From Bradyrhizobium guangdongense (GTDB lineage: Bacteria; Pseudomonadota; Alphaproteobacteria; Rhizobiales; Xanthobacteraceae): a stretch of 64,000 nt of DNA. Below are positions 37,974 through 43,639 of the stretch, piece by piece. The position numbers were made by a program, and so were the translations under genes. The stretch is from the NCBI RefSeq assembly GCF_004114975.1, contig NZ_CP030051.1, positions 6,758,001-6,822,000 on the forward strand, given 5' to 3'. The notes under the pieces are model-generated. The model saw nothing but the letters and a program-made list of their open reading frames with translations. It did no database searches and was not told the origin of the DNA. Within the stretch, counting starts at the first letter, position 1. Each line of letters opens with the position of its first letter.

Positions 37974-38690
37974 TCACTCGGTCGTACTGACTTCCCATGT
38001 GGCATGCCGCACGCCCGGCAGGTGCTGCAAATCGGTCGCCACGGCGTTCAGCTCGTTCGGGTCGACCGCGCTGGCCACCAGCTTGGCGACGATCTCCAGC
38101 AGGTCGTCGCCGATCTCGACCACCTCGATATCGGCAACCGCATATTTCGCCGCTTCGAGCTTGTCGACGAGACGGTCGCGCATGTCGGGTAGCGCGTCGG
38201 TCGCGACCGCGAGCTTGAAGTAATAGGTGGCCTCCAGCGCCTTCTCGTCCAGCGGAATGCGGTTGATGGCATTGACGAGCGGGCGCAGCAGGGTATTGCC
38301 GGCGATGACGAAGACGGTGAGCGCAGCTGCCTGCGCGACCATGTCGGCCCCGGCGCAGGAGCCGACGGCTGCCGAGGCCCATAGCGTTGCCGCGGTGTTG
38401 AGGCCGCGCACGTCCATGCCCTGCTTCATGATGACGCCGGCGCCGAGAAAGCCGATGCCGGAGACAACATAGGCGATCACCCTGACAGCACCATCCGCTC
38501 CGTCCAGATGCATCGCAAGATCGACGAAGGCGGCCGCACCGACCGCGACCAGCACGTTGGTGCGCAGGCCTGCGGTGCGTTGGCGATATTGCCGTTCGGC
38601 GCCGATCAGCGTGCCCAGCACAAAGGCCGTGGTCAGGCTGACCAGCGTGTCGGCGAAATCCGCGAGCTGGAAGGTGGTGAGAAATCGCAT
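37974..38690 (-). CDS. MgtC/SapB family membrane protein
   Basis: The 238-residue protein has about four N-terminal membrane helices with the family motifs GTLIGAERQYRQRTAGLRT and GIGFLGAGVIMKQG, followed by a soluble C-terminal ACT-like domain (about 150-238, EVVEIGDDLLEIVAKL). MgtC proteins help growth at low magnesium, in part by limiting the F1Fo ATP synthase. No Mg-sensing leader is evident upstream. It is a single gene, 30 bases from the WD40 gene but with its own start. Confidence 0.93.
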   Translation of the reverse strand: MRFLTTFQLADFADTLVSLTTAFVLGTLIGAERQYRQRTAGLRTNVLVAVGAAAFVDLAMHLDGADGAVRVIAYVVSGIGFLGAGVIMKQGMDVRGLNTAATLWASAAVGSCAGADMVAQAAALTVFVIAGNTLLRPLVNAINRIPLDEKALEATYYFKLAVATDALPDMRDRLVDKLEAAKYAVADIEVVEIGDDLLEIVAKLVASAVDPNELNAVATDLQHLPGVRHATWEVSTTE

Positions 38691-38720: not shown

Positions 38721-39740
38721 TCAAAGCTCCAGGAGGCCGCCGTCCCCATTTTCGTCCGCGAATGCGAGCAGTGTGCCCTTGGCGTTCCAGGCGATCGCGG
38801 CCACCGGCGGGGTGCCGTTGCGGCGGACCAGGATCTCGGCGCCGTCCTCCAGCCGAACCATCAGCACCGTGCCGTCGCTGTAGCCGGCGGCGAGGATGTC
38901 GTTCTTCGGATGGCAGGCGACCACCGACACGCGCGCCTGCAGCGGCGCGAGCATCGCGGGCTCCTTGCCCATCGGGCCGTCCTTGCTGGCGAACGGCCAG
39001 ATGATGACAGTGTCGGCGCCCGAGGTCGCGAGCCCCTTGCCGCCAGCGCTCCAGGACATCGAGCGGACGCGGCCGGGATAGCCGGTCATGCGCATGTGCC
39101 TGTTGTCGGCGAGCCGCCAGCCATGCAGCGCCGGCTCGTGCATCGCTGTGACCAGGAATTTGTTGTCCGGGCTGAAGGTGACGCCGTGATGCGAGCCGGC
39201 CCAGGGCAGAAACTCGGCCGATCCCTCCATGTTCGGAAACCACAGCGTGGCGCCGTTGTAATGCGCGATCGCGAGCCGCAGACCCTTGGGCGCGAACGCG
39301 AGCCCGCCGACGGTCGAGGGCACCTCGAGCGACTTCTCCTCGTTCTTGCCGCTCTTGACGGTCGCGATCTTGCCGGCCGACCAGGCGAAGGCGCCATCGG
39401 CGTGCAGCGCCACCGCATCGATCCAGCGCCGCTTGGGATCGGTGGCGAGCAGCGTCACCTCGCCCTTGGCGTCGAGCGCGACGACCTTGCCGTTGTCGCC
39501 GCCCATGATGATGCGCTTGCCGTCAGAAGCGGTCGAAAGAATGCCGCCACTGTGCACGGCGACCGTGGTGATCTCACCGGCGATGTCGACGAGCGCGACA
39601 TTCTCCTCGCCGCCGACGAAGGCGGCGCGAGGCCCGAGAAAATGCACCGAGGTCACGGCCATGCCGAGCGTAACCGGCTTGACGCGGTCGGTGACGGAGA
39701 CGATCGAGGCGGAATCGGGGGGCGGCGTGAACTCTTTCAT
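38721..39740 (-). CDS. WD40-repeat beta-propeller protein of the zinc operon
   Basis: The 339-residue protein is built of WD40-like blades (TVIIWPF, KFLVTAMHEPALHGW, ILAAGYSDGTVLMV), about seven, and so should form a beta-propeller. It lacks a signal peptide. Its ATG overlaps the GTPase stop by one base (TGATG), so translation is coupled to that gene, and it is the last gene of the zinc operon. It might bind the GTPase or a client metalloprotein. I know of no assigned function for such a protein in a zinc operon. Confidence 0.88.
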   Translation of the reverse strand: MKEFTPPPDSASIVSVTDRVKPVTLGMAVTSVHFLGPRAAFVGGEENVALVDIAGEITTVAVHSGGILSTASDGKRIIMGGDNGKVVALDAKGEVTLLATDPKRRWIDAVALHADGAFAWSAGKIATVKSGKNEEKSLEVPSTVGGLAFAPKGLRLAIAHYNGATLWFPNMEGSAEFLPWAGSHHGVTFSPDNKFLVTAMHEPALHGWRLADNRHMRMTGYPGRVRSMSWSAGGKGLATSGADTVIIWPFASKDGPMGKEPAMLAPLQARVSVVACHPKNDILAAGYSDGTVLMVRLEDGAEILVRRNGTPPVAAIAWNAKGTLLAFADENGDGGLLEL

Positions 39741-40792
39741 CACGAGACGATGCAGCTCTCGAAGCCCTCGCGAATGGCCTTTTCCGGCAGTTCGCGGCCG
39801 ATGAAGACGAGGCGGCTCTCGCGCTTCTCGCCCTCTTTCCACTTCCGCTGGTGGTTGCCCTCCAGCATCATGTGGACGCCCTGGAAGACGTAGCGGTCGT
39901 CGTCGTCGTGGAAGGCGAGAATGCCCTTGGAGCGCAGGATCTTGCCGCCCTCGACCTGCACCAGGTTCTGCAGCCAGGGCATGAACACGTTGGGATCGAG
40001 CGGCTTGTCGGTCTTGAGCGAGAGCGACTGCATGTCCTCGTCGTGATAGTGCTTCAGGCCGTGGCCGTGGTCATGATCGTGATGATGGTCATGACCATGA
40101 TGGTGGTGATGATCATGGTCGTGGTCGTGATCGTCGGCTTCGAGGAAATCAGGCTCGATATCGAGGATGCGATCGAGATCGAACGCGCCGCGGTCGAGCA
40201 CGTCGGCCAGCGCCACCGAGCAGCGCTCGGTGCGATGCAGCTTGGCATAGGGATTGATGCCGCGGATGCGGGCCTCGACCTCGGCAAGCTCGCCCTTGTT
40301 GACGAGATCCGTCTTGTTCAGAACGATGACGTCGGCAAAGGCGATCTGGTTCTTGGCCTCGGGCGCATCCTTGAGCCGGTCCGACAGCCATTTGGCGTCG
40401 GCAACCGTGACCACCGCATCGAGCCGGGCGTTCTTCTGCACGTCCTCGTCGACGAAGAAGGTCTGGGCGACCGGCGCCGGATCAGCAAGGCCGGTGGTCT
40501 CGACGATGATGGCGTCGAACTTGCCCTTGCGCTTCATCAGCCCGTCCATGATGCGAACGAGGTCGCCGCGCACGGTGCAGCAGATGCAGCCATTGTTCAT
40601 CTCGAACACTTCCTCATCGGCGCCGATGATGAGGTCGTTATCGATGCCGATCTCGCCGAATTCGTTGACGATGACGGCGTATTTCTTGCCGTGATTTTCC
40701 GACAGGATGCGGTTGAGCAGCGTGGTCTTGCCGGCACCGAGATAGCCGGTCAGGACGGTCACGGGAATTTTGGAGGCGGTCGCTTCAGACAT
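39740..40792 (-). CDS. COG0523/CobW family zinc GTPase with His-rich loop
   Basis: The 350-residue metallochaperone GTPase has the P-loop GYLGAGKT (16-23), the metal motif C69-ICC72 (GCICC), and NKTD for guanine. A loop near residues 215-255 is crowded with His and Asp (DHDHDHDHHHHHG, further HDHH). This is the ZigA/YeiR/ZNG1-like class that gives zinc to client enzymes under zinc limitation. GGAG lies before the ATG at 40792. Its place after the zinc ABC transporter and before the WD40 gene, 66 bases from the ABC binding protein gene, supports zinc rather than cobalamin. Confidence 0.93.
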   Translation of the reverse strand: MSEATASKIPVTVLTGYLGAGKTTLLNRILSENHGKKYAVIVNEFGEIGIDNDLIIGADEEVFEMNNGCICCTVRGDLVRIMDGLMKRKGKFDAIIVETTGLADPAPVAQTFFVDEDVQKNARLDAVVTVADAKWLSDRLKDAPEAKNQIAFADVIVLNKTDLVNKGELAEVEARIRGINPYAKLHRTERCSVALADVLDRGAFDLDRILDIEPDFLEADDHDHDHDHHHHHGHDHHHDHDHGHGLKHYHDEDMQSLSLKTDKPLDPNVFMPWLQNLVQVEGGKILRSKGILAFHDDDDRYVFQGVHMMLEGNHQRKWKEGEKRESRLVFIGRELPEKAIREGFESCIVS

Positions 40793-40858
40793 AACAACTC
40801 CGGACATAAGGCTGTCGCGCGACACGGACGGGGTCGCCCCGATGGGGTGGCCCCTGCC

Positions 40859-41722
40859 CTAATGGTCAAGCGCGCTGGTCAGGGCCTTTATATTGTGCCT
40901 GACCATATCAATGTAAGTGGGTGCAGGCCCCTTTTCGCCGGTCAAACCGTCCGAAATCAGGGTCCCGCCGACCTTGGCGCCGGTCTCAGCCGCGATCCGC
41001 CGGATCAGGCGGTCATCGCTGATATTTTCCAGGAACACGGCCGGGATTTTTTGGGCCCTGATCTGGCCGATGATACCAGCGATGTCCCGCGCGCTGGGCT
41101 CTGTTTCCGTGGAGACCCCGAGGGGAGCGATGAACTGGATGCCGTATTCGGCGGCGAAATAGCCGAAGGCGTCATGGGTCGAGATCACCTTGCGCCGCTC
41201 CGGCGGGATCCTGGCCACGGCCTCGCGGACCTCGCGGTCGAGCGTGTCGAGCTTTTCCAGATAGGCCTTGGCCTGGGCACGGAAGAATTCCCCATCTCCA
41301 GGGGCGGCAGCGGCGAGCGCGTTGGCGATATCAGTCACGTAGACCTTGGCATTGGGCACGGATTGCCAGGCATGCGGATCGGCCGCCGAGCCGAGCTGCA
41401 GCGGCGTGATGCCGGCGCTGGCGGTGACCACTTGCGCCTTGCTGCCGGAGGATTGCACCAGACGCGGCAGCCAGCCCTCGAGGCCGAGTCCGTTGACGAT
41501 GACGAGCTTCGCCGCCGCGATACGCTTCGCATCGCCTGGCGGCGGCGTGTAGACATGGACATCGCTGTCGGCGCCGACCAGCGTCGTTACGCTGACCCGC
41601 TCACCACCGACATTGCGGACGAAATCGCCGAGGATCGAGAAGCTCGCGACGACGTCGAGCCGCTCGGCTGCGTGCAGCGGCGAGGCGATCAGCAGCGAAG
41701 CAAGGAGCAGAAGGATGCGCAT
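40859..41722 (-). CDS. znuA: Zinc ABC transporter substrate-binding protein
   Basis: The 287-residue exported protein belongs to the cluster A-I metal-binding family. After a signal peptide (MRILLLLASLLIASPLHA) the metal ligands are H56 (DVHVYTP), H117 (DPHAWQ), H183 (STHDAFGYF) and D258. The third ligand is histidine as in ZnuA, not the glutamate of manganese binders (SEGAFxYF). There is no His-rich loop, which ZnuA of some genera has. The ATG at 41722 is used, since GGAAG is well spaced; a GTG at 41728 lies too near it. It follows the permease gene with overlap. Confidence 0.9.
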   Translation of the reverse strand: MRILLLLASLLIASPLHAAERLDVVASFSILGDFVRNVGGERVSVTTLVGADSDVHVYTPPPGDAKRIAAAKLVIVNGLGLEGWLPRLVQSSGSKAQVVTASAGITPLQLGSAADPHAWQSVPNAKVYVTDIANALAAAAPGDGEFFRAQAKAYLEKLDTLDREVREAVARIPPERRKVISTHDAFGYFAAEYGIQFIAPLGVSTETEPSARDIAGIIGQIRAQKIPAVFLENISDDRLIRRIAAETGAKVGGTLISDGLTGEKGPAPTYIDMVRHNIKALTSALDH

Positions 41723-41724
41723 CG

Positions 41725-42594
41725 TCACGCTTCCAGGTGCCGGCCGGGAAACATCTGGCGAACCAGTCCGCCGACGCTGCCGAACAGGACCGAAACGACA
41801 TAGAGCGCGGCAGCCACGAGGATGATGGCGGGGCCCGAGGGCACGCGGGTCTGGAACGACAGCACGAGGCCGGCATAGCCCGAGACGGCGGCAGCGACGA
41901 CCGCGATGCAGATCATCATCGTCAGGTCGCGCGACCAGAACCGCGCGATGCCGGCCGGCAGGATCATCAAGCCCACCGCCAGCAGCGTGCCGAGCGCCTG
42001 AAACCCGTTGACCAGGTTGACGACCACCAGCGCGAGGAAGGCGAGATGCGCGGGGCCGCCGGCGCGGCTGACGGTCCGCAAGAACAACGGATCGACGCTC
42101 TCGATCACCAGGGGACGATAGATCACCGCGAGCACCAACAGCGTCACCGTCGCGTTGAAGGCGACCACCAGCAACGTCTGGTCGTCCATCGCCAGGATGT
42201 TGCCGAACAGCACGTGCAAGAGGTCGATGTTGGTGCCCTTGATCGAGACGATGCTAACGCCGAGCGCCAGCGAGGCCAGATAGAAGGTCGCGAGCGAGGC
42301 GTCCTCCTTCAGCCCGGTCGAGCGGGCGACCACGCCGGCAAGGATCGCGACCGCGAAGCCGGCGATCAACCCGCCGGCGGTCATCGCGAACAGGTTGAGC
42401 CCGGAGAGCAGGAAGCCGACGGCCGCGCCAGGCAGGATCGCGTGCGCCATGGCGTCGCCGACGAGGCTCATCCGCCGCAGCATCAGGAACACGCCGATCG
42501 GTGCGCCCGCCAGCGACAGCGCGACGATGGCGGCAAGCGCCCGCCGCATGAACTCGAATTCGGTGAACGGGCCGATCAGCGCGTCATAGATCAT
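41725..42594 (-). CDS. znuB: Zinc ABC transporter permease
   Basis: The 289-residue inner membrane protein has eight to nine helices and the ABC-3 (metal ion) permease motifs MSLVGDAMAHAILPGAAVGF and VGLMILPAGIARFW. It forms the channel of the zinc uptake system with the ATPase upstream and the binding protein downstream. Its stop overlaps the following gene's reading frame by a few bases, so translation is coupled. Confidence 0.95.
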   Translation of the reverse strand: MIYDALIGPFTEFEFMRRALAAIVALSLAGAPIGVFLMLRRMSLVGDAMAHAILPGAAVGFLLSGLNLFAMTAGGLIAGFAVAILAGVVARSTGLKEDASLATFYLASLALGVSIVSIKGTNIDLLHVLFGNILAMDDQTLLVVAFNATVTLLVLAVIYRPLVIESVDPLFLRTVSRAGGPAHLAFLALVVVNLVNGFQALGTLLAVGLMILPAGIARFWSRDLTMMICIAVVAAAVSGYAGLVLSFQTRVPSGPAIILVAAALYVVSVLFGSVGGLVRQMFPGRHLEA

Positions 42595-42600
42595 CTGAGA

Positions 42601-43353
<753 letters not shown>

Positions 43354-43355
43354 GC

Positions 43356-43592
43356 TCACCTCATCGCCAGGAAGACGATGCCCCAGAGCACGGCGCAGAC
43401 GGCCAATGCGGCCGCGAGGCGCCCGGCCATGGTCATCCGCAGGATCGACCAGGGCGCGTCCTGGGCCGGATGTGGCGAAGCCGCATCGTGGACATGGGCA
43501 TGGGTATGGTCGTGCCCGTGCGAATGGCCATGGTCGTGGGAATGGCCATGAGCATGGCCGGGATGATGGGTATGGGACGCGGCGGGAACCAT
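43356..43592 (-). CDS. Small His-rich membrane protein, first gene of the zinc operon
   Basis: The 78-residue protein has a His/Asp/Gly-rich N-terminal half (HTHHPGHAHGHSHDHGHSHG, about 17 histidines in 30 residues) and one C-terminal membrane segment (LAAALAVCAVLWGIVFLAM). It starts with the ATG at 43592, 10 bases from the Zur-like palindrome, and ends at the start of the ATPase gene. The make-up suggests a membrane-held zinc sponge or ferry that feeds the ABC uptake system or stores zinc at the membrane. I know of no characterised protein of this exact build. Confidence 0.8.
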   Translation of the reverse strand: MVPAASHTHHPGHAHGHSHDHGHSHGHDHTHAHVHDAASPHPAQDAPWSILRMTMAGRLAAALAVCAVLWGIVFLAMR

Positions 43593-43601
43593 GCCAAAGA
43601 C

Positions 43602-43614
43602 GTTATATTATAAC
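43602..43614. promoter_or_regulatory. Zur-type palindrome at the zinc operon start
   Basis: GTTATA-T-TATAAC is a perfect 13-base palindrome, 10 bases upstream of the first start codon (43592). It matches the alphaproteobacterial Zur box pattern (GTTATA-N-TATAAC). Zinc-loaded Zur bound here would block the promoter, so the six genes downstream should be turned on when zinc is scarce. Confidence 0.75.
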
Positions 43615-43639
43615 ATTACGTCTGTCCACGGCCGGCTCA

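Follow-up and report, generated by a model that had tools for sequence, protein, structure and literature searches.

The window analysed here is a 64-kb stretch of a Bradyrhizobium guangdongense chromosome, and all positions given for the operon are those of the window. On the minus strand of this window lie six co-directional, tightly packed genes. They encode a small membrane protein with a His-rich tail, the ATPase, permease and periplasmic binding protein of a zinc importer, a COG0523 GTPase and a WD40 protein (Table 1). A Zur-type palindromic operator precedes the first gene. The initial annotation had proposed these six genes, in this order and behind a Zur-type box, and all of them are confirmed at 38721-43616. 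The gap between the stop codon of the small gene and the ATG of the ATPase gene is 2 nucleotides (nt). The GTPase stop codon and the WD40 start codon overlap (TGATG). An alternative GTG start of the ATPase gene is located at 43359. In a Pfam search of the operon proteins, the ABC_tran, ABC-3, ZnuA, cobW with CobW_C, and WD40 families are all confirmed.

Table 1. Features of the six-gene operon and its operator, with positions in the window.
Feature	Position	Strand	Sequence or basis
Zur-type palindromic operator	43600..43616	.	ATGTTATAATATAACGT on minus strand; TATAAT-like -10 inside
Small single-helix membrane protein, His-rich N-terminal tail, 78 aa, first gene	43592-43356	-	helix conservation, pN/pS
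AztA/ZniC-type zinc ABC transporter ATPase	42601..43353	-	ABC_tran; AztA top NCBIfam match
AztB/ZniB-type permease	41725..42594	-	ABC-3; AztB top match
AztC/ZniA-type periplasmic zinc-binding protein	40859..41728	-	ZnuA Pfam; AztC top match
COG0523 GTPase, GCxCC motif, internal His-rich loop	39740..40792	-	cobW/CobW_C; YjiA PDB match
WD40 propeller protein, partner gene of GTPase	38721..39740	-	WD40 repeats, predicted fold

The transporter genes were initially annotated as znuC, znuB and znuA. A zinc ATP-binding cassette (ABC) importer is encoded, but it is not of the classical ZnuABC type. NCBIfam ranks the AztA, AztB and AztC models (214.4, 254.2 and 302.2 bits; cut-offs 220, 280 and 350) far above the ZnuC, ZnuB and ZnuA models (95.7, 83.2 and 65.7 bits; cut-offs 306, 284 and 268), and the transporter is therefore better named AztABC/ZniCBA-like. 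The Azt scores are all below their cut-offs and the Znu scores are all far below theirs, and an identity as classical ZnuABC is rejected. The operon also does not qualify for the AztABCD group, as its subunits score under the Azt cut-offs and AztD is absent; the WD40 protein does not match AztD, and Pfam detects no further propeller among the six genes. The ATPase, permease and binding protein of AztABCD from Paracoccus denitrificans are the closest named relatives. That system is reported to respond to zinc and to have a Zur motif at aztA (PMC5387054), and it differs from the present operon by the presence of AztD. Two three-gene zinc importers under Zur control are similar as well. These are ZniCBA of Rhizobium leguminosarum (PMC12183173) and, according to papers that cite it, TroCBA of Agrobacterium tumefaciens.

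The first gene is the new part of the operon; the pairing of the GTPase with the WD40 protein is already known. In a first pass through the fetched operons, 41 loci were found to have a short open reading frame (ORF) in which a membrane helix comes after a His-rich stretch. A helix profile was built on 40 of these 41 loci together with the window peptide. This profile also detects small proteins with few or no His. Within the order Rhizobiales, 76 of 80 evaluable operons have the helix immediately ahead of the ATPase gene. The starting sample held 81 operons whose permease shows an identity of 54% or more; one locus, fetched without upstream sequence, was excluded (L038). All 76 matches are on the same strand as the ATPase gene, and their ends range from 6 nt within the ATPase match to 123 nt ahead of it. 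Nearly half of them (36/76) were not part of the set from which the profile was built. The rest of the sequence at the 160 loci contains no profile match with E <0.02.

In the helix alignment, one Arg and one Trp are invariant in all 45 members and a Ser is nearly invariant. Across 30 distinct tails from the genus, the ratio of nonsynonymous to synonymous polymorphism (pN/pS) is 0.31 in frame versus 1.68 and 1.76 in the shifted frames. The in-frame value is far below the others, so it is the protein product and not the DNA that is conserved. The small protein is under purifying selection. This bears on the possibility that the small ORF is a regulatory leader, in which translation through the His codons controls the downstream genes. 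As the first ORF of the operon, abutting the ATPase start and rich in His codons here, it has the appearance of one. However, selection on the helix acts at the amino acid level, Arg and Trp are invariant, and many family members have no His. A leader is highly improbable.

The His-rich tail is more variable than the helix. A tail, defined as at least five His in 40 residues, is present in 41 of the 76 small proteins and lacking in 35; L116 was set by hand to lack one, as its His residues lie before the likely start. The conserved element is thus the single membrane helix, and the His-rich tail is a variable add-on. The His-rich peptide of the initial annotation is present in the window, but its name describes the part that varies and not the part that is kept. 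Lys and Arg are more numerous before the helix than after it in 74 of the 76 proteins, equal in two and fewer in none. With this bias to the N-terminal side, the tail is predicted to be cytoplasmic.

In Pfam and NCBIfam searches with the 45 members, no family is matched by more than one member, and the matches that do occur are only at E >0.01. An identity as ZrgA is rejected, since the match to PF10986 is weak (8.7 bits; cut-off 27.4) and covers the His-rich stretch. DmeF and LpqS were likewise rejected, as their matches in the same databases are weak and far under the cut-offs. No mention of the small protein was found in the literature searched, the coverage of which is incomplete, and an earlier mention is possible.

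The small gene is found well beyond the operons of the first sample. Within the genus, 59 of 60 genomes contain a profile match and the exception is a genome that is 89% complete. The ATPase gene follows the small gene in all 30 fetched loci of the genus. Among the named loci, 78 extend far enough upstream and 77 of these encode the small protein, among them loci of Rhodopseudomonas, Nitrobacter, Afipia, Microvirga, Methylobacterium and Ancylobacter. The named loci are the best 80 of 587 matches, mostly from Bradyrhizobium, and form an uneven sample. In one genome of the order (G226), there are two AztABC-type operons (L121 and L172), each with its own helix protein and no His tail. Operons with more divergent permeases generally do not have a detectable helix. 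With permeases 45-50% identical, one of ten operons passes and three others have weak sub-threshold matches. Where the permease is distant (27-33% identical) and does not have an ATPase gene immediately upstream, the helix is found at none of 11 loci.

At the class level, 289 genomes were searched (permease E <=1e-50; helix profile E <=0.01). When the rows with a profile match were compared by hand, 51 of 64 matches were adjacent and upstream of the permease place and 13 were placed otherwise, some of them at contig breaks. This search scored up to 24 candidates per genome, and non-matches are therefore not absences. All 27 permease loci without an adjacent match were fetched. At nine of these, the profile matches at E <=0.01 just before the ATPase gene, and at another (L236) it matches approximately 1 kb upstream. 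At ten more (L211, L217, L218, L219, L221, L224, L226, L228, L229 and L232), a short ORF with one hydrophobic stretch is visible by eye before the ATPase gene. The ORF at L211 has a His-rich tail and a helix that the profile does not detect, and the family may thus extend beyond what the profile captures. At the phylum level, 53 of 299 genomes have a match at E <=0.001, and 25 of these are outside the class. The ATPase gene follows in 29 of 29 checked loci, all of which are among the stronger matches (19 from the order, mostly overlapping the earlier draws, three from elsewhere in the class and seven from outside the class).

In R. leguminosarum, the Zur motif is reported to lie 153 bp before the first annotated zni gene (PMC12183173). 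A gap of this size has room for a short ORF like that of a Neorhizobium locus (L178). Three genes are named for ZniCBA, and the small protein is not mentioned in the available part of that paper.

Of the four evaluable order operons that lack the small protein, AztD accompanies the transporter in three (L146, L147 and L149). At L146 and L147, approximately 50 nt separate a palindrome from the ATPase gene, which leaves no space for a small gene. The fourth (L152) is of the AztABC type, and within the fetched stretch it has no small protein and no AztD; the match to its binding protein contains a gap, suggestive of a long insert. A single order operon (L145) was found with both AztD and the small protein. 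The same division is seen in eight plasmid loci, hand-picked from 43 records: the small protein is absent from the four with AztD and present in the four without it. The helix profile has no match upstream of aztA in four AztABCD loci (two Paracoccus species, Sinorhizobium numidicum and Klebsiella). Mutual exclusivity at the class level was rejected as uninformative, since AztD was found in just one of the 289 genomes.

AztD is described as a periplasmic propeller zinc chaperone (PMC6689063), and this precedent, together with the distribution above, suggests that the small protein could be a periplasmic substitute for AztD, with a His tail that catches zinc and feeds it to the binding protein. 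The charge bias, however, places the N-terminal tail inside in nearly all cases, and in almost half of the proteins the tail is without His. There is also no trade-off between the tail and the His loop of the binding protein. The idea that the tail compensates for a missing loop was rejected, as the two are not correlated in the 66 of 76 operons compared (26/13/19/8; Fisher p 0.79). The near relatives of the window's binding protein (L013-L019) lack a His-rich loop. A periplasmic substitute is unlikely. AztD and the small protein may be alternatives, or the AztD-type loci may be just another transporter clade and the two clades simply different.

The WD40 protein of the operon shares features with AztD, likewise a beta-propeller, which is associated with zinc importers and frequently also with genes of the CobW family (PMC6689063). 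The two differ at the N-terminus: four examined AztD sequences open with a signal-like segment, whereas by eye no signal peptide is seen in the WD40 protein. An identity of the WD40 protein as AztD is rejected, since it has no significant similarity to these four sequences (best E 0.093). In NCBIfam, AztD is matched neither by the WD40 protein nor by its relatives, and one of 40 relatives weakly matches ScyD/ScyE. AztD is not among the 50 ranked chains listed by Foldseek for the WD40 model, which excludes nothing.

The GTPase has the features of the COG0523 (G3E) family, including the CxCC motif, and matches PF02492 (203.7 bits) and PF07683 (95.8 bits). The three Cys of its GCxCC motif are invariant across 64 aligned sequences, and 51 of 63 relatives have a His-rich stretch. 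In the PDB, no protein other than YjiA is matched at E <=0.01. The WD40 protein contains WD40 repeats and has a predicted propeller fold (mean predicted local distance difference test score 94.6). A COG0523 gene lies directly upstream of the WD40 gene in 62 of 80 loci. Across 249 genomes, 92 contain both genes, one contains the WD40 gene alone and five contain the GTPase gene alone, with non-adjacent cases included. The initial annotation would have been contradicted by a WD40 gene that is not kept beside COG0523, and the neighbourhood survey finds it kept. It had also treated the WD40 protein as an addition to the classical set. The pairing is real, but it was published in 2009: subfamily-5 COG0523 genes cluster with WD40 genes, znuABC and Zur sites (Haas 2009, PMC2770081). 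By its gene context, the GTPase of the present operon is a candidate member of subfamily 5. The available part of that study does not speak of the small membrane protein. What is added here to the published pairing is the near-perfect co-occurrence of the two genes, also when they are not adjacent. An MgtC/SapB-like gene (37974-38690, minus strand) begins 30 nt past the WD40 stop codon and co-transcription is possible. As a seventh member of the operon it was rejected, being downstream in just five of 80 WD40 loci.

The His tail tends to occur with the GTPase. A GTPase is encoded in the genomes of 40 of the 41 tailed small proteins versus 16 of the 35 tail-less ones. Within the order draw, a tail is present in 30 of 30 operons that hold the GTPase versus 11 of 46 others, where many loci were fetched just 2.5 kb past the permease and a more distant GTPase is counted among the others. 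In five operons from other draws, the GTPase is present and the small protein has few or no His. Thus the GTPase does not depend on the tail, an add-on that tends to accompany it without being a needed partner. These patterns also bear on a reading in which the helix of the small protein does no more than help the permease to assemble or to stay stable, with a passive zinc buffer for a tail and no hand-over to the GTPase. The helix persists where the tail is short or without His, and it persists in genomes without the GTPase (20/76 operons). The uniform presence of the tail in GTPase-holding order operons counts against this reading, though the five other loci do not share it. A pure assembly helix is a plausible explanation that we hold to be somewhat less than even in probability.

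The operator ends 7 nt ahead of the start codon of the small gene. A genome-wide scan (8.44 Mb, 2 contigs) with at most one mismatch to RTGTTATANTATAACRY detects two sites, and the reversed control pattern detects none. With a longer operator pattern and at most three mismatches, there are again two sites genome-wide and one match to the control pattern. In 65 of 79 related operons, the 700 nt upstream contain a palindrome that agrees with the operator at 12 or more of its 17 positions; among equally long control stretches, 20 of 395 contain one. The genome encodes a Zur-like Fur protein (PRK11639, 117.7 bits), which scores under its cut-off of 167. From the operator sequence ahead of its first gene, the operon is predicted to belong to the Zur regulon, and it would be repressed by Zur and respond to zinc starvation. 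A consensus promoter scan detects no sigma-70-like promoter. No ribosome-binding site is visible by eye between the operator and the start of the small gene (43590-43616). Because the operator is so close to the start codon and a ribosome-binding site is not visible, the transcript may be nearly leaderless. The sole other strong Zur-type site in the genome (L010 1500-3023; C1 near 6010966) precedes a 144-residue ORF and then an ORF that by eye resembles a TonB-dependent receptor. These two ORFs are a candidate outer-membrane zinc uptake pair.

Taken as a whole, the locus is, somewhat more likely than not, a Zur-controlled zinc-starvation operon composed of an AztABC/ZniCBA-type importer, a small accessory subunit and a GTPase-WD40 pair that distributes zinc. 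The small protein is most likely an accessory subunit of the importer, crossing the membrane once. Its helix would pack on the permease through the invariant Arg, on the inner face, and the invariant Trp, in the membrane. The tail would then hang in the cytoplasm at the zinc exit of the permease. Where it is His-rich, as here, it could buffer zinc at the exit and pass it to the GTPase, a protein that likewise carries a His-rich loop, together with a GCxCC site. The GTPase and WD40 proteins are envisaged as a cytoplasmic pair for the distribution of incoming zinc, with the propeller as the docking partner of the GTPase for clients. The initial annotation had suggested that the additional proteins ferry zinc from the uptake system to clients. 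Such a role has partial support: it fits the predicted cytoplasmic tail and the link between tail and GTPase operons, but the hand-over itself is our inference, and a zinc relay from the small protein to the GTPase is possible. A stronger proposal is doubtful. It takes the small protein for a nearly ubiquitous, so far undescribed subunit of this entire type of importer in Proteobacteria; in lineages with the GTPase in the operon, zinc would move along the cytoplasmic His tail directly from the permease to a COG0523 metallochaperone that has a dedicated partner in the WD40 protein.

Several observations weigh against these proposals. The helix is missing from four order operons (L146, L147, L149 and L152) and from one of the named loci (L305). 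Coverage at the class level is less complete, with an adjacent upstream profile match at just 51 of 78 permease loci. Seven of these 27 fetched class loci have no clear small helix ORF (L213, L214, L230, L231, L233, L234 and L235); L235 is ambiguous, and in L213 and L214 no ATPase gene is recognised. The five GTPase operons in which the small protein has few or no His are L316, L346, L348 and those of Skermanella (L176) and Gemmobacter (L179). In addition, the link between tail and GTPase is largely a difference between families and may be due to shared ancestry.

A fourth membrane component of such zinc importers, overlooked because its gene is tiny, can now be tested for, as can the source of zinc for COG0523 GTPases. 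If the small protein is present and needed in R. leguminosarum, the description of ZniCBA as a three-gene system would be incomplete. The hand-over, if true, would be a direct transfer of zinc from an importer to a chaperone. The co-occurrence of the GTPase and WD40 genes offers a concrete partner to test in a family with few known clients.

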